From the NCBI GenBank assembly GCA_020348385.1, contig CP070750.1, positions 3,138,695-3,202,694 on the forward strand: a DNA stretch of 64,000 nucleotides. Direction: 5' to 3'. Within the stretch, counting starts at the first letter, position 1. Each line of letters opens with the position of its first letter. Source of the DNA: Candidatus Aminicenantota bacterium. Lineage in GTDB: Bacteria > Acidobacteriota > Aminicenantia > Aminicenantales > Aminicenantaceae. The notes beneath the pieces were generated by a model. That model did not search any database. It was not told the origin of the DNA and was given only the letters and a program-made list of their open reading frames with translations. The translations under genes were made by a program, and so were the position numbers. Positions 13,881 to 24,550 of this stretch are shown piece after piece.

Positions 13881-15965
13881 TTGAAAAATAAGTTGTTCCG
13901 GGGGTTGATGATTGCGATTGTGGTTTTTTCCATCACTTTCATTCTGTATGTTGGCGACGTTTTCGATGTCTGGGAGTGGAAGACTTGGGATTTGAGGCTA
14001 CGGCTTTTCTCCGAGTCCTCCCGAGCGAGCGAAAACATCGTGATCTTCCTCATCGATCAGAACAGCCTCGATGTTTATGAACAGGCGATGGAAATCTCCT
14101 GGCCTTGGCCTCGCGAGATGTATTCCTACATCCTCGAATACTGCATGAGGGCGGGGGCAAAAGCGGTTTTTATCGACTTCGTTTTTTCCGAAAGTTCTTC
14201 CTGGGGAGTTGATGACGACCAGTTATTCGCTGAAACGATGGCCATATCCAATGATGTCTTTCTGCCCATTTCGTTGAGCAAAAGCACAAAAGAGATAGAT
14301 GAATCCTCTTCTCCGGTTTTGAAAACCTTTTCCCTGACCGGATTCCCGTCTCTGGGGGAGTCTGCGATTCCGATGGAATCTGTATCTCTCCCGGTCCCCA
14401 ACCTTTTGAGTTCTGCAAAGGGAGTAGGCAATACGACCTTTGCACAGGACAAAGACAGCGTCTACCGTCGGATGCCCCTTGTGTTTTCGCTGAATGATTT
14501 GCTTCTTCCTTCTGTGCCCCTGGCATTGTCCTTGTTTCTGGATGAAACCCTGAGCCCTGCAGATATTCCCCTGGACCTCTCGAACCAGATGATCATCAAA
14601 TACTACGGTCCCACAGGCACTTATGCCAGCTACTCCGCCGCCGCCATAATCAACTCCTATGCAAAGTTGCAGGAGGGTAAGCCCCCGCAGATCCCGCCCG
14701 AGACATTCAAGGGAAAGGTCGTTTTCATCGGAGGAAGTGCGCCGGGCATTTTGGATTTGCGTCCGACGCCTTTCAGCCCAGTTTGCCCTGGCGTGGAAAT
14801 ATTAGCCACCACCTTGGATAATCTTTTGCAAAAGGATTTTATCCGCATCCCGCCTCCTTTGGTTTTATTCCTCTTCATCGGAATCCTGTCATTGATCACG
14901 GCAATCGGTTCTTCCATCCTGAAGAAAATTTGGATGACCATTCCATTCGCAGTTTTTTGCCTTGGTCTCCTTGCCAGCGTGACCAGTTTAGCGTTCGGAT
15001 GGGGCTATTGGCTGGAGTTCGTTGCCCCCGGTTTTGCTGTCCTCTTGAGCTTCACAGGGGCCATGGTCCTCAATTACAGTTTCGAAGGCCGGCAAAAGCG
15101 TTATATCAAGAGCGCATTCCGTCATTATCTCAGCCCCGATGTCATAGACAGGGTGTTGGCAGATTCTTCCCTGTTGAGACTGGGCGGGGAGAAGAGGATT
15201 ATCACGTCCTATTTTTCCGATGTCGCCGGTTTCACCTCCATCTCGGAAAGCCTCTCTCCCGAAGAATTGGTGCACCTTCTGAACGATTACCTGTCGGAGA
15301 TGACCGACATCATCCTCTCCTATGGAGGGACTCTGGACAAATACGAAGGGGATGCCATTATCGCATTCTGGAATGCTCCTCTCGACCAACCGGACCATGC
15401 AGTGAGAGCCTGCCGAGCTGCGCTCGATTGTCAAAAAAGACTGGAAGAACTGAGACCTGAATTTGCCCAAAAATCGGGGCATGAATTGTTCATGCGTATC
15501 GGTCTCAATTCAGGCCCCGCGGTCGTAGGAAATATGGGTTCCCACAGCCGTTTTGATTACACAGCCATGGGGGATACCATCAACATGGCCTCTCGTCTCG
15601 AAGGAGCGTGCAAACACTATACGGTTCCTATCCTGGTCGGTGACACCACGTTCCAGATGGCACAGGATGACATAGCCGCCAGAGAGGTGGATCTCATTCG
15701 AGTTGTGGGAAAAAGTAAACCTGAACGCGTGTACCAGATTTTGGAGGAGAAAAGTCAAATTTCCCTGAAAATGAAGGAAAATGTGACCACCTTTCACAAG
15801 GCGCTTGATTTTTACAGGAAGAGAGGATGGGATGATGCCTTGAACTTGTTCAAAAAGATCAAGGATGATAAGTTATCCGCCATGTATGTTGCCCGCATCG
15901 AGCAACTCAAGCAAAGTCCTCCGCCGGATGATTGGGCAGGAGTTTATGACCTAACACAAAAGTAA
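13881..15965 (+). CDS. CHASE2-domain adenylate/guanylate cyclase
   Basis: A 694-residue membrane receptor cyclase. It has one TM (about 8-26), an extracytoplasmic CHASE2 sensor (about 35-315), three TM segments (about 325-400), and a class III cyclase domain (about 430-600). The two metal-binding aspartates are in FSDVAGFT (about 446) and KYEGDA (about 489). The Lys of DKYEGD, with the DYTAMGD and NMASRLEG motifs, fits ATP as substrate, so cAMP is the likely product. A C-terminal helical tail (about 625-694) follows. No ATG is in frame near the start; TTG 13881 is used, though the ATG eight codons later is possible. Signal and regulation are unknown. Confidence 0.92.
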   Translation: MKNKLFRGLMIAIVVFSITFILYVGDVFDVWEWKTWDLRLRLFSESSRASENIVIFLIDQNSLDVYEQAMEISWPWPREMYSYILEYCMRAGAKAVFIDFVFSESSSWGVDDDQLFAETMAISNDVFLPISLSKSTKEIDESSSPVLKTFSLTGFPSLGESAIPMESVSLPVPNLLSSAKGVGNTTFAQDKDSVYRRMPLVFSLNDLLLPSVPLALSLFLDETLSPADIPLDLSNQMIIKYYGPTGTYASYSAAAIINSYAKLQEGKPPQIPPETFKGKVVFIGGSAPGILDLRPTPFSPVCPGVEILATTLDNLLQKDFIRIPPPLVLFLFIGILSLITAIGSSILKKIWMTIPFAVFCLGLLASVTSLAFGWGYWLEFVAPGFAVLLSFTGAMVLNYSFEGRQKRYIKSAFRHYLSPDVIDRVLADSSLLRLGGEKRIITSYFSDVAGFTSISESLSPEELVHLLNDYLSEMTDIILSYGGTLDKYEGDAIIAFWNAPLDQPDHAVRACRAALDCQKRLEELRPEFAQKSGHELFMRIGLNSGPAVVGNMGSHSRFDYTAMGDTINMASRLEGACKHYTVPILVGDTTFQMAQDDIAAREVDLIRVVGKSKPERVYQILEEKSQISLKMKENVTTFHKALDFYRKRGWDDALNLFKKIKDDKLSAMYVARIEQLKQSPPPDDWAGVYDLTQK

Positions 15966-16178
15966 ACTTGGATTATTTATAAAAAATGCTGATGACATCA
16001 TTCATTTTCAATGAAGCCAAATTTTCAAATTTCTTTATTTTTATTAGCATTTTTTACCCTGCGGGCGAGCCGATCTCACAACATCGACTTCGTTGTAGCC
16101 CATTCGCAGTAGTTTACTACAGCTTCGTGGGCCACTTCCTCGTCGCTGCAGCAATCTCGGCACGTAGATAATCCAAGT
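15966..16178 (+). repeat. Full-length copy of a 213-bp inverted-terminal-repeat element
   Basis: The ends ACTTGGATTATTTAT and ACGTAGATAATCCAAGT form an imperfect terminal inverted repeat of about 15 bp. Inside lie a conserved TTTTTTACCCTGCGGGC block and a long imperfect hairpin (about 16095-16135) with a GTAG-TTTA-CTAC tip. The copy at 32894-33119, read on the opposite strand, shares the ends, the block and the hairpin. It has no coding capacity, so it resembles a MITE or a conserved structured non-coding element. Confidence 0.75.
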
Positions 16179-16197
16179 AAAATATAAGGAATGGACA

Positions 16198-17028
16198 ATG
16201 AGTGAAAATAATAATACTACGAAGTTGGTGTTTTGGGGTGTCAGAGGAACTTGTCCTGTTTCCGGTGAAGACAGAAACACATACGGCGGCCACACTCCAT
16301 GTTCGTCTTACGAAACACCCGATGGAAGTTTCCTTATCATAGATGCGGGTACGGGTATCAAAGTTCTGGGTGATGGGCTTATGAGCGACATAGGCAAATT
16401 GCCAACAACCCTTCATATTTTTATGACGCATTTTCATCTCGATCACATCATGGGGCTTCCATTTTTCGGACCTCTCTATTTACCGGAGGTTCGGTTGAAC
16501 TTTTACTCTGACATCCTACCCGAGGATATGGAGAAAAACCTCAGCGGTTTTATGGGAGGGAATTACTTTCCAGTTTCGTTCCAGCAAACGCAGTCAGAGA
16601 AAAAGTTCCAAAGGATGCCCAAAGGCGGCCTTGAAATCGGGGGATGTCGCATTTCTTGTTGTCCTCTCAACCATCCCCAGGGAAGTGTTGCCTACAAAAT
16701 ACAGGACGAGAACAATACGCTCGTCAGTGCCACGGACACAGAACACCCTCTGCATGGGATCGACAAAAATCTTGCCGATTTTGCTGCTGGAGCGGATATG
16801 CTGGTGTATGATGCAACCTTCACGCCGGCTGAGTACCAATCAGGCCGGAAAGGCTGGGGGCACAGCACTTGGTTGGAAGGAACAAAACTGGCAAAACAGG
16901 CTGGAGTGAAAAAACTTATCCTATCCCATCTGAATCCAGACCACCAAGATTCCCAGATCGATGAGATCGTATCCTTGGCTCGGGAAGAATTTCCGGATAC
17001 CTTTGGAGCCATGGAGAGAGGCGGCTAA
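16198..17028 (+). CDS. MBL-fold metallo-hydrolase
   Basis: A 276-residue metallo-beta-lactamase-fold enzyme with the metal motif THFHLDH (about 79-85), an Asp ligand in SATDTEH (about 179), and a C-terminal His in LSHLNPDH. The N-terminal GVRGTCPVSGED resembles cyclic phosphodiesterase and RNase-Z-like members. The usual products are cleaved phosphodiesters. Because it sits between a cyclase and a cNMP-gated channel gene, a cyclic-nucleotide phosphodiesterase role is attractive, but this is inference. SD AAGGAATGG precedes ATG 16198. Confidence 0.85.
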   Translation: MSENNNTTKLVFWGVRGTCPVSGEDRNTYGGHTPCSSYETPDGSFLIIDAGTGIKVLGDGLMSDIGKLPTTLHIFMTHFHLDHIMGLPFFGPLYLPEVRLNFYSDILPEDMEKNLSGFMGGNYFPVSFQQTQSEKKFQRMPKGGLEIGGCRISCCPLNHPQGSVAYKIQDENNTLVSATDTEHPLHGIDKNLADFAAGADMLVYDATFTPAEYQSGRKGWGHSTWLEGTKLAKQAGVKKLILSHLNPDHQDSQIDEIVSLAREEFPDTFGAMERGG

Positions 17029-17040
17029 AGGAGGATCGTT

Positions 17041-18621
17041 TTGTATAAGGAAATTTTTCTGATCTTTGCTTTTGTCTTGGTCGCTGGATTGCTTTATTTT
17101 CCATCCCGGTCATTGATCCGACGGTTATGTGGTCCGAAGGGAAGGCCTATCGGGATGCTGATGTCAAGGTTGACCCTTCCTCTTGTTTTCCTCATCGTCT
17201 CCCTTGTTTTGCAGATCCATCCTATCCGGAGAGTGCTCTTTCCGTCACAAGAACTCCACCCATATTTTGACGCTGCGCTCATATTCTTTTTCATCTTTTT
17301 GTTGATCCGATTAGTGGATGGGTTTCTCTTGGGTTGGCATGCGCATAGGCACCGAGAATTTCCGCTTCCCAGGGTTCTCCACAGCCTTATCTTGGCGGTT
17401 TTTTACCTGAGCATTTTGTTCGTTATATTAAACGGAATCCTTGGAATCGATATCACTCCATTTCTAGCCACATCCGCCATCTTGACTATGATTTTGGGTT
17501 TGGCTTTCCAGGGAGTTCTCAGCAACATCCTTGCAGGGATGTCGCTCCATTTCACAAAATCCTTCAGCAAGAATGATTGGATCCAGGTCGGCGATCATGA
17601 AGGAATGGTCCTCGATACAAACTGGAGGGAAACCCGCATTTTCGATCGGTATTCCAATGTAATCGTGTTGCCCAACAATATCGTCGCTTCAGAAAAAATC
17701 ACTAATTTTTCACACCCGGACAAAAAAACTGCTTTAACCATCCCAGTGAAAGTTAGCTATGATGCCCCTCCCTCCGACGTTTTGGCTGCTCTTCTTGCGG
17801 CAGCCAAAGATGTTCCAGAGGTCCTGGAATCGCCTGCACCAGAAGCCTATGTTCTCAGCTATGACGACTTTGGCATTTCTTATGTGCTGAAATTCTGGAT
17901 CAAACACTTTGCCCGCAAGTATCCGATCATGACCGATGTAGGGACGTTGATCTGGTACAAATTTAAAAGGCAAAACATCGAGATCCCTGTTCCTGTGAGC
18001 GATAAACTCGGTGAGATGATTCAGTCATTCGGACCTAAGGATTTCATTTCTGGCGTGCCCATAGAGGTTGACAGAAATTTTCATGACCTGATGAGATCGT
18101 CCTTCCTCCGCTATCAAGAAGGAGAGAAAAAGGGTGAATTGTTGGTTCCCGTGGAGGAGATAAGGACGTTTGCCTCATTCCTAGTACGTCACCGATATGC
18201 TCCCGGGGAACAAATATTCAAACAGGGGGAAGGAGGGGAGTCCTGTTTCATCCTGGCTAGTGGAAGAATTAAGGGAGAAATTGCCTACGAGGAGAAAGGG
18301 AAAAGATACAAGTCCGAATTCAGCGTGGAACCTGGGGGGATATTCGGGGAAATGTCTCTTTTTACGGGGATGCCCCGCACCGCTACAGGAATTGTCGATG
18401 TGGAGTCTGAGCTCCTGGAAATCAATACAGCAGGTTTTTCGCGTCTCCTAGAGAGCAATCCAGAGTTGGCCGATGTGATCGCCGATTTGGTTAGTAAGCG
18501 TAACAAAAAAAATCAAGAGTTTCTGGAAAAGATCAAAGAGCTTTCCGCCCAGGATATCGAAATCAGCACGAACAAACATTCGATACTTAATAGGCTCAAG
18601 AAATTCATAAAAAGGTTCTAA
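17041..18621 (+). CDS. MscS-type channel with C-terminal cyclic-nucleotide-binding domain
   Basis: A 526-residue inner-membrane protein. Four TM segments (about 5-160) end in a pore helix region with Gly/Ala spacing (ILGLAFQGVLSNILAGM). A MscS beta domain (about 175-230) and C-terminal domain follow, then a cNMP-binding domain (about 375-495). The phosphate-binding cassette is FGEMSLFTGMPRTAT and keeps both the Glu and the Arg that contact cyclic nucleotide. Known members of this fused family are gated by cAMP or cGMP rather than by tension. TTG 17041 is supported by AAGGAGG eight bases upstream. Confidence 0.93.
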   Translation: MYKEIFLIFAFVLVAGLLYFPSRSLIRRLCGPKGRPIGMLMSRLTLPLVFLIVSLVLQIHPIRRVLFPSQELHPYFDAALIFFFIFLLIRLVDGFLLGWHAHRHREFPLPRVLHSLILAVFYLSILFVILNGILGIDITPFLATSAILTMILGLAFQGVLSNILAGMSLHFTKSFSKNDWIQVGDHEGMVLDTNWRETRIFDRYSNVIVLPNNIVASEKITNFSHPDKKTALTIPVKVSYDAPPSDVLAALLAAAKDVPEVLESPAPEAYVLSYDDFGISYVLKFWIKHFARKYPIMTDVGTLIWYKFKRQNIEIPVPVSDKLGEMIQSFGPKDFISGVPIEVDRNFHDLMRSSFLRYQEGEKKGELLVPVEEIRTFASFLVRHRYAPGEQIFKQGEGGESCFILASGRIKGEIAYEEKGKRYKSEFSVEPGGIFGEMSLFTGMPRTATGIVDVESELLEINTAGFSRLLESNPELADVIADLVSKRNKKNQEFLEKIKELSAQDIEISTNKHSILNRLKKFIKRF

Positions 18622-18665
18622 TTTGTGCTATATATAGGCCACTTCCCTGCCTATGGCCACTTCTT

Positions 18666-18694
18666 TGCCCATCCTTAATAAGCTTGGGTGGGCA
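18666..18694 (+). terminator. Possible hairpin terminator after the channel gene
   Basis: TGCCCATCC and GGGTGGGCA pair around a 11-base AT-rich loop, with further weaker pairing outside (CCACTTC with GAGGTGG). There is no T-run after it, so factor-independent termination is doubtful. Confidence 0.35.
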
Positions 18695-18755
18695 GGGATG
18701 GGGAGGTGGATTTCCGTTCATAAATAGTCCAAATTTAGTTACTAAAATGGATTGT

Positions 18756-18784
18756 TTGACAGAAAATTTTGCCTGTGCTATAAG
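18756..18784 (+). promoter_or_regulatory. Strong sigma-70-like promoter for the oxidoreductase-cNMP-cyclase-fusion operon
   Basis: A perfect TTGACA, a 17-base spacer and TATAAG lie 31 bp before ATG 18815. It is the best promoter in this part of the window. It places the four genes up to 24550 in one transcription unit, separate from the channel gene. Confidence 0.7.
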
Positions 18785-18814
18785 CGTTCATACTCTGAAA
18801 AAGAAAGGAAGATA

Positions 18815-20170
18815 ATGCTTAGTCTCGATGAAAATTCTCGAGTGGCCGTGATCGGCGCAGGACCGGCTGGCACTTTTTTCAGCTATTTTCTTTTTGCCAT
18901 GGCTGAAAGAGTGGGACAGGAAATCCAGTTGGACATTTTCGAGTCTCGAAATTTTGCGAGCCCGGGCCCATCTGGTTGTAACATGTGTGGGGGCATCGTC
19001 TCGGAATCCTTGGTCCAAACTCTTGCTACTGAAGGGATTAACCTCCCCGCCTCTGTCATCCAAAGGGGAATCGATTCATACGTCCTCCACATGGATGTGG
19101 GGAGCGTCAAGATTGAAACTCCTCTTCAAGAAAAAAGGATAGGTGCTGTTCACAGGGGAGCCGGCCCACGAGGAAATCAAGAGGGGCAGTGGGACAGCTT
19201 CGATAATTTTTTGTTGAAACTAGCCAGGGACAAGGGAGCGAACATTATATCTGGGCGAGTTGACGAAATCCGTTGGGAAGATGGTCGGCCAGCCGTGAAG
19301 GTCCGTGGAGGAGAATCTCGCGTCTATGATCTTCTTGTAGTGGCAGTGGGAGTGAACACCGCAACGCTCAAACTTTTTCAAGATATGGATATCAAATATA
19401 CTGCTCCGGAAACCACCAAAACATTCATTTGTGAGTATGCTCTTGGCAAGGAAAAGATCGAGAATTACCTGGGAAGTTCCATGCACACCTATCTCCTAAA
19501 AATTCCCCGGTTGGAATTCGCGGCAATGATCCCCAAAGGGGAGTATGCCACAGTTTGCATGCTCGGAAAAAAGATTGATAAAGAACTTGTGCAGTCTTTC
19601 CTGAATACCCCTGAGGTCAAACGTTGTTTGCCGCCCGATTGGGATTCCCAACAGGAAGCCTGCCGATGCATGCCCAAAATCAACATCAAAGGCTCATCTC
19701 ACCCATTTAGTGACCGGTTGATATTTGTGGGCGACTGCGGCATCTCCCGGTTGTACAAGGACGGGATCGGTGCTGCCTATAAAACAGCTAAGGCAGCCGC
19801 CACGACCGCCGTATTTACGGGGATCTCAGAAGAGGCCCTCAAGCAGCGTTTCTGGCCTGCATGTCAAAAGCTCGAAAAGGACAACAGGATCGGGAAATTG
19901 ATTTTTTCGTCTGTGGGTTTGATTCAGAGTTTCCCTTTTGCAAGGCGTGCCATTCTGCGGATGGTGGCCAAAGAACAGCAAAACAGGGGGATGCCCCAAC
20001 GCATGAGCACATCGCTATGGGATTTGTTTACGGGAAGCGCCCCTTATCGCGAAGTCCTTTTACGCATGGCCCATCCGCTTTTTTTAAGCAGCCTTATCTG
20101 GAATATCGTGATCGAGCTGTGGCCTTTTCGCCGGAGGAAACAAAAAGGGAGGAGCCATGAAGAAGAGTAA
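18815..20170 (+). CDS. FAD-dependent oxidoreductase of the geranylgeranyl-reductase-like group
   Basis: A 451-residue flavoprotein with the dinucleotide motif VIGAGPAGTFFSYF near residues 12-25 and a Cys-Gly-Gly motif (GCNMCGG) near 56-62. A second FAD-binding stretch, IFVGDCGISRLYKDGIG, is near 305. These resemble geranylgeranyl reductase and squalene/sulfide-type FAD enzymes. The C-terminus (about 420-440) is hydrophobic, followed by RRRK, and may touch the membrane. The substrate is unknown. ATG 18815 is chosen because an AAAGGAAG site and the promoter at 18756 precede it; an upstream in-frame start at 18752 would fall inside the promoter. It overlaps the next gene by 14 bases. Confidence 0.85.
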   Translation: MLSLDENSRVAVIGAGPAGTFFSYFLFAMAERVGQEIQLDIFESRNFASPGPSGCNMCGGIVSESLVQTLATEGINLPASVIQRGIDSYVLHMDVGSVKIETPLQEKRIGAVHRGAGPRGNQEGQWDSFDNFLLKLARDKGANIISGRVDEIRWEDGRPAVKVRGGESRVYDLLVVAVGVNTATLKLFQDMDIKYTAPETTKTFICEYALGKEKIENYLGSSMHTYLLKIPRLEFAAMIPKGEYATVCMLGKKIDKELVQSFLNTPEVKRCLPPDWDSQQEACRCMPKINIKGSSHPFSDRLIFVGDCGISRLYKDGIGAAYKTAKAAATTAVFTGISEEALKQRFWPACQKLEKDNRIGKLIFSSVGLIQSFPFARRAILRMVAKEQQNRGMPQRMSTSLWDLFTGSAPYREVLLRMAHPLFLSSLIWNIVIELWPFRRRKQKGRSHEEE

Positions 20171-20528
20171 GCTGGGTAAAGTATTCAACGACGGAGAGGT
20201 CATTATCCGACAGGGAGACGCCGGAAATTTCATGTACGAGATCTTGGATGGCCAGGTAGAGGTTCTCCGGGAAAAGGGGGGAGAAGAAGTACAGCTGGCC
20301 ATATTGGAAAAGGGGGATTTTTTCGGTGAAATGGCGATATTCGAGAGAGAGAAACGTTCGGCCACGGTTCGAGCCCAAGGACAGGTGCGTGTACTGACTG
20401 TGGATAAAAAAATCCTTCTCCGGAGAATTTCCGAAGATCCCTCCCTGGCTTTGCGAATTCTTGAAAGAATGTCTCGCCGGATCCGAGAAATGGATGGAGA
20501 GCTCGTACGTTTAAGGACAGGAAAATAA
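20157..20528 (+). CDS. Stand-alone cyclic-nucleotide-binding domain protein
   Basis: A 123-residue protein that is a single cNMP-binding beta-barrel plus C-terminal helix, with no DNA-binding or catalytic domain. The phosphate-binding cassette FGEMAIFEREKRSATV has the Glu and Arg expected for cyclic nucleotide binding. It starts within the end of the oxidoreductase gene behind GGGAGGAG, so it is tightly coupled to it. It may be a diffusible regulator or cAMP sink that acts on a neighbour's product. That role is inference. Confidence 0.88.
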   Translation: MKKSKLGKVFNDGEVIIRQGDAGNFMYEILDGQVEVLREKGGEEVQLAILEKGDFFGEMAIFEREKRSATVRAQGQVRVLTVDKKILLRRISEDPSLALRILERMSRRIREMDGELVRLRTGK

Positions 20529-20536
20529 AAAAACTT

Positions 20537-22225
20537 ATGAAAAAAAATAAACCGAGTCTTCAAATTACCGAGTCCGATGGGCGAAGTCATGAACTCGTAA
20601 TGACTGGAGAAGAAGTGACGATTGGTCGCAGCGATGAGAATGTTCTAACTTTTATCGATCCTAAAGTCTCCAGAAACCACGCCAAGATAGCCAAAAAGGG
20701 AAATAACTATGTGCTCACCGACCTGGGTAGCTTCAACGGAACAAAAGTCAATACGGAGTTTGTAACGAACAAGGTTCTAAGCAATGGCGATGAGATTCGG
20801 ATCGGGGGGGCTTTGTTGATCTTTCTGTCCGGGAAAGACGGGATCTCTACGACCGACGATAAGCTCGACTACTTCAAGGATGATGAATATCAACAGTGGC
20901 AGCAGCAGACGATTTCAATCAAACCACAGGATTGCACCCAGATCGATTCACGGACTCTGCTGGTCACACCGAAAGCAAAACCAAGACCCAAAGATAGAGG
21001 CAAATCGATGATTCCCCGCAAGGACAGACAGCCGACCAAAGACCAATTCGAGCTCTCTCGTTTGGAGAGAATGAACAAAGTCTTGTTCGTTTTGTATGAG
21101 ATAAGCCGGCATATAAATATAATCCATGATTTTAACGAGTTGTTGGGGAAAATCATGGAGCTCATTTTTCAGGTCATCGATGCCGATTATGGATTTTTAA
21201 TCCTGATGGATGATAAGTCGGGAAGAGATTTTGTTCCGGTTGTCGTAAAGCTCAAGGACGACAGGATGAAAGGAAAAATTAGAGCCAGCCGGACATTGTG
21301 TAAAAAGGTAATCGAAGACAGGGTAGCCCTGCTTACCTCTAACGCCATGGATGATGCCAGATTCTCGCCGACCGAAAGCCTAGTGAAACAAAAGATCCGT
21401 TCTGCCATATGTGTCCCGCTTTGGCAGAAAGAAAAGATCATCGGAGCCATCCAGTTGGACAGCACCCGGTTGGGGAATCAGTTCACCCAGGATGACCTCG
21501 AACTCCTCAAGGCCATTGGGTGTCAGATGTCCATGGTCCTTGAACAGGCCAATTTGAATAAAAAAATTCGTGAGGAAGAAGAACTGCGAAGCCGTTTGGA
21601 AAGGTATCACTCTCCCCAAGTGGTTAATATGATTCTTAAGACCGCTGAGAGATCGCAGGACGATTTGCTCGAGGCCAAGGATGTGAGCGTCACCATACTT
21701 TTCTCAGACATTGTGGGATTCACCAGGCTTTCCGAGCGTTTGAATCCTTTGGATGTGAACATGCTCTTGAATCAGTATTTTTCCAGGATGACGGATATCA
21801 TATTCGAGTACGAGGGGACCTTGGATAAGTATGTTGGCGACAGAATGATGGCGGTGTTCGGTGCTCCGTTGGAGAAGGATGACCATGCGGAGAGAGCGAT
21901 TCGAGCGGCCTTGAAGATGAGAAAGGAACTGGCTGAGATGATGGAACAAGCGAGCCCGGATAAAAAGTTCGACGTGCGATTGGGATTGAACACGGGCCAT
22001 GTTGTGGCCGGTAATATCGGATCACCCAAACGTATGGACTACACGGTAATCGGGGATTCGGTCAACATCGCCTCCCGATTGGAATCCAGTGCCGAACCCA
22101 ATCAAATATTGATCGGCGAAGAAACCTATCGCCAAGTGAAGGGAAAATTCAAAACGCGAAAAGTCGGTTCCAAAACGTTCAGGGGGAAATCCGAATCGAT
22201 CATGGTTTATGAGGTCTTGGATTAA
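20537..22225 (+). CDS. FHA-GAF-adenylate/guanylate cyclase
   Basis: A 562-residue soluble cyclase. It has an FHA domain (about 20-95; IGRSDEN, SRNH and GSFNGTKV are the phosphothreonine-reading motifs), a linker, a GAF domain (about 185-340) and a class III cyclase domain (about 380-562). The metal aspartates are in FSDIVGFT and KYVGDRM, and the substrate motifs are DKYVGD, DYTVIGDSVN and ASRLE. The layout suggests input from a phosphorylated partner (FHA) and a small ligand (GAF). It begins eight bases after the preceding gene. cAMP is the likely product, by the Lys/Asp pair. Confidence 0.93.
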   Translation: MKKNKPSLQITESDGRSHELVMTGEEVTIGRSDENVLTFIDPKVSRNHAKIAKKGNNYVLTDLGSFNGTKVNTEFVTNKVLSNGDEIRIGGALLIFLSGKDGISTTDDKLDYFKDDEYQQWQQQTISIKPQDCTQIDSRTLLVTPKAKPRPKDRGKSMIPRKDRQPTKDQFELSRLERMNKVLFVLYEISRHINIIHDFNELLGKIMELIFQVIDADYGFLILMDDKSGRDFVPVVVKLKDDRMKGKIRASRTLCKKVIEDRVALLTSNAMDDARFSPTESLVKQKIRSAICVPLWQKEKIIGAIQLDSTRLGNQFTQDDLELLKAIGCQMSMVLEQANLNKKIREEEELRSRLERYHSPQVVNMILKTAERSQDDLLEAKDVSVTILFSDIVGFTRLSERLNPLDVNMLLNQYFSRMTDIIFEYEGTLDKYVGDRMMAVFGAPLEKDDHAERAIRAALKMRKELAEMMEQASPDKKFDVRLGLNTGHVVAGNIGSPKRMDYTVIGDSVNIASRLESSAEPNQILIGEETYRQVKGKFKTRKVGSKTFRGKSESIMVYEVLD

Positions 22226-22228
22226 AAC

Positions 22229-24550
22229 ATGGAACACCTCAAGAAGTTTATCGCAACATTACCCTTATTCCGAAACTTCTCATCCATAGAGCTCGAAGTG
22301 TTGATCAAAAAAAGTCATGTGAAGACTTTTGCTCCCCGGGAAGTGATCATCCCATTCGGCCAGCCGGGCAGATTTTTAGGTGTCATGTTAGAGGGGGAAG
22401 CAGAAGCTGTGATCACCAGCAAAACTGGCGAGCGCGTTCGCCTAGGTCTCTTGAATAAAGGGGATATCCTGGGAGAGGCATCCCTTTTGACCGGAGAACC
22501 AACGAATGCTGATGTCATCGCTTTGACAAGATGTCAGCTTTTTCTTATCCCCCAAGCCAGTTTTTCGACTTTTTTAGCGGTCAATCCTGATGCGGTCAGG
22601 ATCATGGCCAAAACGATTACAGACAGATTAAGATCCCGCCAAAAGAATGAGGAAGAAAAAACCCGATTGGAAGATGCCTGGCGAAACATCCCAGATCCGT
22701 ATGGCCTTCGGTTGGCTACAGCGTCGCCTGAAAAAATTCTGGTCATAAACTGTGGCAGTTCTTCCTTGAAGTTCCGTTATTATGACACGGCGGATGAATC
22801 GAACAATGTAAACGGACTGGTCGAGAGAATCGGATTGGATGATTCATCCTTGGCTGCCGAATCAAAAAAAGGAAAGGTCTGCAAAGCATTCAAAAAAACA
22901 GGCTACGAAGAGGCATTCCAGGCTGTTGTCGATCTTTTGACAGATGAAAATGATGGGATGATCAAGGACCTCGACGAGCTCAGTGCGGTCGGTCATCGGG
23001 TGGTTCACGGCGGAGACAAGTACAACCACCCTGTGATCATCGATGAGGAAGTGGCTCAAGACATCCGCAAGTTTGAGCGTTTGGCCCCTCTCCACAATCC
23101 GGCAAACCTCCTTGCAATCCAAGAAAGCCAAAAGCTCATGCCTGAGGTCCCGCAAATAGCTGTGTTCGATACCGGTTTCCATCAGAAGTTGCCTTCCCAT
23201 GCTTTCCTTTATGGGCTTCCCTATGAATTCTATGAGAAAGATGGTATCCGGCGGTATGGATTCCACGGCATCTCCCACAAGTATGTCTCCCTCCAAGCGG
23301 CCACCCATTTGAAACGTAGGTTTCGCGAGTTGAAGATCATCACCTGCCACCTGGGAAATGGGGCCTCTGTCTGTGCCATCGATCACGGCCGATCCGTGGA
23401 CACGAGCATGGGATTGACTCCGCTGGAAGGATTGATCATGGGAACCCGAAGCGGTGACCTAGACCCATCGACCGTATTTTACTTGAAAAAAGAAAAAGGA
23501 TTATTGCTCGAGGAGATAGAGGATATCTTGAACCGCCAGAGTGGGCTTAAGGGGCTTTCCGGGATTTCCAGTGATTTGCGCGAGATTGAAGAGCAAGCCA
23601 ACCAAGGAAACCAGCGGGCACTGCAAGCCATCAACGTCTTTTGTTACCGGATCCGAAAATATATTGGAGCCTATGTGGCGGCCCTCGGAGGATTAGATGC
23701 CTTGGTCTTCACCGGCGGCATCGGGGAAGGGAGTGCTTGGGTTCGGGGTTTGGCTTGTCAAGGATTGTCCCATATGGGTATTGGCGTGGATACCATTCGC
23801 AACAAAACAGTGACTACAGGACAGGGAGAAATTGCAGATATCTCGGATGAATTTTCACTGGTGAAAATCCTTGTGATCCCGACCGATGAAGAAAGAATGA
23901 TTGCAAGGGAAACGATAAAGATCTTGGGATATCAAGATGTGACACAAGTTCTCAAAAGTCAAAAAGAGAAAAAGATCCCGATCGAAGTTTCGGCCCACCA
24001 TGTTCATTTAGCGAGAGAAGAGATGGATCTGCTCTTTGGTCCTAGAAGTGAGATGACTCACAGATCGGATCTTTCTCAGCCGGGGCAGTTTGCCTGCGAA
24101 GAGACCATAGACCTGATTGGACCCAAAGGCCAGGTGGATAGGGTCAGGGTGTTGGGGCCGTTGAGGGGGCAAAGCCAGGTCGAGATATCGATGACAGAGG
24201 AGTTTAAGCTGGGGATCAAAGCGCCGATACGGGCATCGGGAGACCTAGCTGGAAGCCCGGGAATCACCCTGGAAGGGAGTAAGGGGACTTGCAAGGTCCC
24301 GCAGGGAGTCATTTGTTCGCTTCGACATATCCACATGTCGCCAGAGGATGCGCTGTCGTTTGGGTTGAAGGATCGCGACATCGTGAGCGTTCGGATTGCA
24401 GGGGAGCGGACATTGGTCTTTGGTGATGTTCTGGTCCGTGTCCATCCCGATTTTCGGCTGAGCATGCATATCGACACAGATGAAGCCAATGCCGCTAGCA
24501 TCACCACGGGTATGGAGGGGATTCTGATCGGAGTCCAGGACCGTAGATAA
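22229..24550 (+). CDS. Triple fusion: cNMP-binding-like domain + acetate kinase + PduL-type phosphotransacylase
   Basis: One 773-residue reading frame. Residues 1-145 form a cNMP-binding barrel. Residues about 168-570 are a full acetate kinase: NCGSSSLKF, GHRVVHGG, DTGFH, FHGISHKY, GTRSGDLDP, FTGGIGEGS and DEERMIARET are all present. Residues about 580-773 are a PduL-type acyltransferase with the zinc motifs HHVHL and RHIHM plus PGQFACEET and GPLRGQSQVEIS. Together the enzymes would turn acyl-CoA, phosphate and ADP into acid, CoA and ATP. In the N-terminal domain the cassette reads LGEASLLTGEPTNAD, so the cyclic-phosphate Arg is Thr. The ATG is three bases after the FHA-cyclase stop. There is no sign of frameshift or missing catalytic motif. 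Confidence 0.95.
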   Translation: MEHLKKFIATLPLFRNFSSIELEVLIKKSHVKTFAPREVIIPFGQPGRFLGVMLEGEAEAVITSKTGERVRLGLLNKGDILGEASLLTGEPTNADVIALTRCQLFLIPQASFSTFLAVNPDAVRIMAKTITDRLRSRQKNEEEKTRLEDAWRNIPDPYGLRLATASPEKILVINCGSSSLKFRYYDTADESNNVNGLVERIGLDDSSLAAESKKGKVCKAFKKTGYEEAFQAVVDLLTDENDGMIKDLDELSAVGHRVVHGGDKYNHPVIIDEEVAQDIRKFERLAPLHNPANLLAIQESQKLMPEVPQIAVFDTGFHQKLPSHAFLYGLPYEFYEKDGIRRYGFHGISHKYVSLQAATHLKRRFRELKIITCHLGNGASVCAIDHGRSVDTSMGLTPLEGLIMGTRSGDLDPSTVFYLKKEKGLLLEEIEDILNRQSGLKGLSGISSDLREIEEQANQGNQRALQAINVFCYRIRKYIGAYVAALGGLDALVFTGGIGEGSAWVRGLACQGLSHMGIGVDTIRNKTVTTGQGEIADISDEFSLVKILVIPTDEERMIARETIKILGYQDVTQVLKSQKEKKIPIEVSAHHVHLAREEMDLLFGPRSEMTHRSDLSQPGQFACEETIDLIGPKGQVDRVRVLGPLRGQSQVEISMTEEFKLGIKAPIRASGDLAGSPGITLEGSKGTCKVPQGVICSLRHIHMSPEDALSFGLKDRDIVSVRIAGERTLVFGDVLVRVHPDFRLSMHIDTDEANAASITTGMEGILIGVQDRR

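Follow-up and report, generated by a model that had tools for sequence, protein, structure and literature searches.

A stretch of 64,000 nucleotides from a Ca. Aminicenantes genome (hereafter the window) contains a single gene (22229..24550, + strand; 773 aa) in which an N-terminal cNMP-binding-type (CNB) domain, an acetate kinase (AckA) and a PduL phosphotransacylase are joined in one polypeptide. This three-domain fusion is real, widespread and inherited as a single clade. We consider, with a probability of roughly 0.6, that it is a bifunctional enzyme leading from acyl-CoA to ATP, whose CNB domain would be of a non-cAMP type and would serve regulation or assembly. The novelty lies in the addition of the CNB domain to the known AckA-PduL pairing, and this sensor-like domain is the most interesting part of the protein.

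The gene was delineated from its open reading frame, Pfam matches, homologues and an AlphaFold2 model. It is a single frame of 773 codons with an ATG start and no internal stop, and three Pfam families are recovered above their curated cut-offs: cNMP_binding (PF00027, residues 32-117, E 1.5e-17, 63.8 bits), Acetate_kinase (PF00871, residues 169-560, E 6e-151, 503 bits, 392/392 of the model) and PTAC/PduL (PF06130, residues 584-758, E 2.5e-74), the AckA part also matching TIGR00016 (494.7 versus a cut-off of 293.4). The reading of the initial annotation, namely one frame holding a CNB-like domain, AckA and PduL, is therefore borne out. Along the chain, the CNB-fold domain (22229..22648, +; residues 1-140) is connected by its C-helix and a short linker motif (22694..22714, +) to the acetate/propionate kinase domain (22730..23929, +; residues 168-567), which is followed by the PduL phosphotransacylase domain (23966..24547, +; residues 580-773). 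The AlphaFold2 model of the whole protein, built from a 37-sequence alignment, has a mean pLDDT of 86. In Foldseek comparisons, its AckA part aligns with solved acetate kinases at a TM of about 0.9 (by target), and its PduL part with Rhodopseudomonas palustris PduL 5CUO at a TM of 0.96 (rmsd 1.0).

That such a chain could be an artefact, neighbouring genes having been joined by a frameshift or during assembly, is vanishingly improbable. Indeed, the same domain order, sought in other genomes as the initial annotation had suggested, is present from end to end in 21 further loci from independent assemblies and about ten phyla. Full-length homologues in other assemblies (88, 76, 76, 74, 67, 64, 59 and about 47-55% identity; 59-88% within the same bacterial family) run across both junctions, near 22730 and 23960, and so exclude a frameshift or misassembly at these points. 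According to their genome titles, the carriers include Fischerbacteria, Brocadiia, Pirellulaceae, Hydrogenedentes, Verrucomicrobium, Akkermansiaceae, Chthoniobacterales, Spirochaetales, Chitinivibrionales, Bdellovibrio, Desulforapulum and Deltaproteobacteria. Since most of these are MAG contigs, individual phylum labels may be wrong; one carrier, Verrucomicrobium sp. BvORR106, bears no MAG label and appears to be an isolate. In the AckA tree (a quick tree search without bootstrap), the three-domain proteins form one group with an SH-aLRT of 95, the sole other row being L008, which ends at its contig edge. Outside this group lie the two-domain AckA-PduL fusions, which are frequent in Myxococcota and in Alpha- and Gammaproteobacteria; plasmid records contained two-domain fusions or separate genes only, among the matches listed.

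Between the window protein and its 88% relative (L023), dN/dS values of about 0.14 (CNB), 0.08 (AckA) and 0.085 (PduL) were obtained; all three parts are therefore under purifying selection in one frame. In pairwise distances, the divergence of the CNB tracks that of the enzyme domains (rho 0.50 and 0.60). Sequence conservation is lowest in the CNB (mean pairwise identity of 38% versus 56% and 66% for the other two domains), and two-domain AckA-PduL proteins manage without a CNB, as would be expected if it were a ligand-free dimerisation or packing module and the fusion were unregulated, like its two-domain counterparts. We regard this explanation as unlikely, because purifying selection extends to the CNB and because its pocket, cassette positions and linker motif (G82, E83, L86, G89, A94 and D95, plus the linker) are among the best-kept columns of the CNB region.

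Both enzyme domains retain the residues of their active sites, so that the complete AckA motifs and the zinc-His motifs of PduL reported by the initial annotation stand. In the AckA part, N174, R257, H289, D314, H346, N377, R407 and E554 are all intact, the reference set being that of Methanosarcina thermophila AckA, N7, R91, H123, D148, H180, N211, R241 and E384. The PduL part has the Zn ligands H591, H593 and E652, and H700, H702 and H747, together with R646 and S670; in R. palustris PduL 5CUO, Zn1 is held by His48/His50/Glu109 and Zn2 by His157/His159/His204, alongside Arg103 (PMC4784909). Mapped from the 5CUO ligand list, the six Zn ligands and R646 are invariant in 37/37 fusions.

Departures from this pattern exist in the kinase of some relatives. 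The AckA site has decayed in the three-domain fusion L036:9971-12286, where the equivalents of N7 and H180 are gone, and AckA residues are partly degenerate in two others (L037:9974-12295 and L033:9797-12277), the PduL residues being fully intact in all three. Judging from these substitutions, the kinase of these proteins may possibly have been converted to a non-catalytic domain. A two-domain AckA-PduL protein from a Myxococcales MAG (L045:7005-8879) carries the equivalents of R91Q and H180F in its AckA.

The genome consists of one contig of 4.35 Mb with an estimated completeness of 83%, within which no second AckA and no second PduL were found and PTA_PTB gave one weak match. In a 60-genome sample of relatives, the seven fusion carriers show no separate AckA, and many family members devoid of the fusion have a stand-alone AckA. 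Intact sites, the sole AckA and PduL of the genome, and relatives without a separate AckA therefore point to a conversion of acyl-CoA to acid with formation of ATP. In the mechanism that we propose, acyl-CoA and phosphate would be converted to acyl phosphate by the C-terminal PduL, whose product the central AckA would use to phosphorylate ADP; acetyl- or propionyl-CoA, Pi and ADP would thus yield acid, CoA and ATP on one polypeptide, the fusion chain taking the place of separate AckA and Pta/PduL. Direction and substrate are here presumed from the known chemistry of the two families, and we likewise infer that the enzyme is active and may channel its intermediate. The fusion would not be the only possible acyl-CoA to ATP route of this genome, because three long ADP-forming acyl-CoA synthetase-like proteins are also encoded. 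A microcompartment role for PduL was considered and rejected, as no BMC shell genes (PF00936) were matched in the genome, at its estimated 83% completeness.

The N-terminal domain has a genuine CNB fold. Modelled alone, it reaches a pLDDT of 90 and resembles CRP and the regulatory subunits of trypanosome PKA; TM values against solved CNB domains range from 0.68 to 0.78, structures of trypanosome PKAR being among the closest. In the canonical cassette, FGE[LIV]AL[LIMV]x[PV]R[ANQV], Arg209 holds the cyclic phosphate (Kannan 2007, PMC2246266). The window cassette is GEASLLTGEPTNADV, that is, by residue, G82-E83-A-S-L-L-T-G-E-P-T92-N-A-D95-V, with T92 at the Arg209 position and hence no phosphate-binding Arg. 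Among 21 aligned fusions, this position is occupied by Thr in 14, by Leu and Ala in two each, and by Ser, Asn and Ile in one each, Arg or Lys being found in 0/21. Glu200, on the ribose side, is kept in 19/21, whereas the Thr212 position has become Asp in 17/21, plus one Glu, and the Ala202 position is Ser (13), Ala (7) or Pro (1). Elsewhere in the family, the Arg is present in most of the CNB proteins examined, the exceptions being FNR-like regulators and one case of Ser. As far as residues can tell, the pocket of the fusion CNB is thus not a canonical cAMP/cGMP site: the Glu is kept, the phosphate Arg is lost and an Asp is gained.

The initial annotation had inferred that the N-terminal barrel controls flux in response to a small ligand, and had named cAMP and cGMP among those to be tried. 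The fold is real, but the loss of the Arg and the acquired Asp speak against control by these two nucleotides. A canonical cAMP mode is unlikely because the Arg is absent from every aligned fusion, while neighbouring CNB proteins keep it; some room is left for it, because PKA RI-alpha without the cassette Arg is still activated, its cAMP response being weakened about 5-fold in EC50 and not abolished, according to work cited in PMC6440977.

The best argument for a cAMP reading comes from the gene neighbourhood, where a cyclic-nucleotide cluster with two cyclases had been missed by the initial annotation. The fusion is the last gene of a same-strand run which comprises a CHASE2-class III cyclase (13881..15965, +; Pfam), a metallo-beta-lactamase-fold protein (16198..17028, +), an MscS-type channel with a C-terminal CNB and the canonical cassette PRTATG (17041..18621, +; Pfam), a geranylgeranyl-reductase-family flavoprotein (18752..20170, +), a stand-alone CNB protein with the canonical cassette KRSATV (20157..20528, +; ORF and Pfam), whose gene the flavoprotein gene overlaps by 14 bp, and an FHA-GAF-class III adenylyl/guanylyl cyclase (20537..22225, +) whose end lies 3 bp upstream of the fusion gene. 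The metallo-beta-lactamase-fold protein matches a model of a cyclic-nucleotide-degrading phosphodiesterase weakly and that of RNase Z better, both below cut-off, and both cyclases have recognisable catalytic motifs. This cluster (13881-24550, 10.7 kb) holds three of the four CNB domains and two of the three class III cyclases of the genome, and in five Aminicenantes genomes the flavoprotein-CNB-cyclase cassette lies next to the fusion. Together with the retained Glu200, such an arrangement is what one would expect if the CNB were an ordinary cAMP (or cGMP) receptor through which cyclic nucleotide from the adjacent cyclases switched acetate/ATP flux. However, in three of these five genomes the cassette is convergent with the fusion and thus not co-transcribed, and no homologue of it was found beside the fusion in the other phyla examined, nor in G012 and G007. 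With the Arg209 and Thr212 positions altered as described, we consider an ordinary receptor improbable. A general operon partnership with cyclases was rejected on the same grounds, the cassette being confined to five close relatives.

Across phyla, all-against-all clustering of the flanking genes revealed no common neighbour of the fusion but only scattered groups, one of which is pyruvate kinase (L029, L031 and L047). This gene lies upstream of the fusion in L029, and a serine dehydratase gene lies downstream in L034; both neighbours are consistent with a flux from pyruvate to acetate. Near two-domain fusions, genes of about 830 aa were considered as phosphoketolase candidates and rejected, as they are P-type ATPase and ClpB/ClpC-type genes. 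In Verrucomicrobium sp. BvORR106, a fumarase/aspartase-type lyase with an N-terminal CNB is encoded directly upstream of the fusion (L032:8074-9927, +); its CNB is also devoid of the cassette Arg (PHATS, with His at the Arg position), and a succinate dehydrogenase cytochrome-like gene is located downstream.

If the CNB domain is of a non-cAMP type, as we favour, it would most likely bind a different ligand, or have its pocket filled by its own linker (DPYGLxL), and we infer a regulatory role in which the signal would reach the kinase through the C-helix and the linker as a conformational change. Purine nucleosides, the ligands of trypanosomatid PKA regulatory subunits, are one candidate. These subunits share the CNB fold with the fusions, are among the closest solved structures and have their Arg replaced by Thr, Asn or Val, T. 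brucei PKAR displaying T318/N442 at the same cassette position (PMC10959531). TbPKAR, however, has at the Ala202 position a Glu that binds both the 3' and the 5' hydroxyl of the ribose (PMC10959531), and this ribose-binding Glu is absent from the fusions, where Ser, Ala or Pro replaces it in 21/21, which makes nucleoside binding very unlikely.

The linker offers another candidate. Directly after the C-helix, the fusions share the motif D156-P-Y-G-[LF]-x-L162 (D in 19/21, Y in 18/21 and L162 in 19/21; D156-P-Y-G-L-R-L162 in the window), which carries 3.1 bits of information per column versus 1.9 for the preceding helix, four of the 21 fusions deviating clearly from it. Kannan 2007 (PMC2246266) describes 30 CNB families, among which the KCNH channels share the double cassette change of the fusions, their cassette being GENFWLYGTKSNADVRA. 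The CNB homology domains of these channels are insensitive to cyclic nucleotides, as a built-in YNL or FNL peptide fills the pocket (PMC7515569). The likeness of the fusions to KCNH (EAG/ERG/ELK) is thus twofold: a cassette without Arg (SNADV in KCNH, TNADV in the window) and an aromatic-x-Leu sequence directly after the C-helix (YNL/FNL in KCNH, YGL/YGF in the fusions). KCNH proteins are nevertheless eukaryotic channels with a demonstrated built-in ligand, whereas the bacterial fusions have a candidate, which could equally be a docking strand: DPYG(L/F)xL sits at the post-C-helix place of the KCNH pocket peptide by its position in the sequence. A self-liganded CNB of the KCNH type, in which DPYG(L/F)xL would fill the site once used for cAMP and the kinase/transacylase module would be switched when this linker leaves or gives way to a metabolite, is a speculative proposal that we hold to be quite unlikely in this specific form.

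Should the bifunctional reading with a non-cAMP CNB be correct, a single chain would accomplish what an ADP-forming acyl-CoA synthetase does while carrying its own sensor, and the ATP-yielding release of acetate or propionate could be controlled post-translationally in uncultured fermenters. The cassette change present in 21/21 aligned fusions would moreover provide a cheap and clear test of non-cAMP sensing by a CNB fold. The initial annotation knew of no characterised enzyme with the order CNB-AckA-PduL, which agrees with the open-access literature searched: neither such an enzyme nor any paper on AckA-PduL with a CNB was found there, and the same holds for the single-clade spread, the arginine-less cassette and the linker motif of the three-domain form.

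Compared with known systems, the PduL part resembles that of R. palustris (5CUO) in its fold and in all the Zn, phosphate and CoA residues checked, but the window protein has no encapsulation peptide and its genome no BMC shell genes. AckA-PduL multidomain proteins, with the suggestion of channelling, were already in print in 2016 (Erbilgin, PMC4784909); there too, AckA and a PduL devoid of the encapsulation peptide share a polypeptide, whereas in the window protein an N-terminal CNB and a conserved linker are present in addition, and its AckA falls in a different clade. Finally, the two reactions and the catalytic residues are identical to those of the pathway formed by separate AckA and Pta/PduL, the difference being that the window protein unites them in one polypeptide and adds a domain of regulatory appearance.
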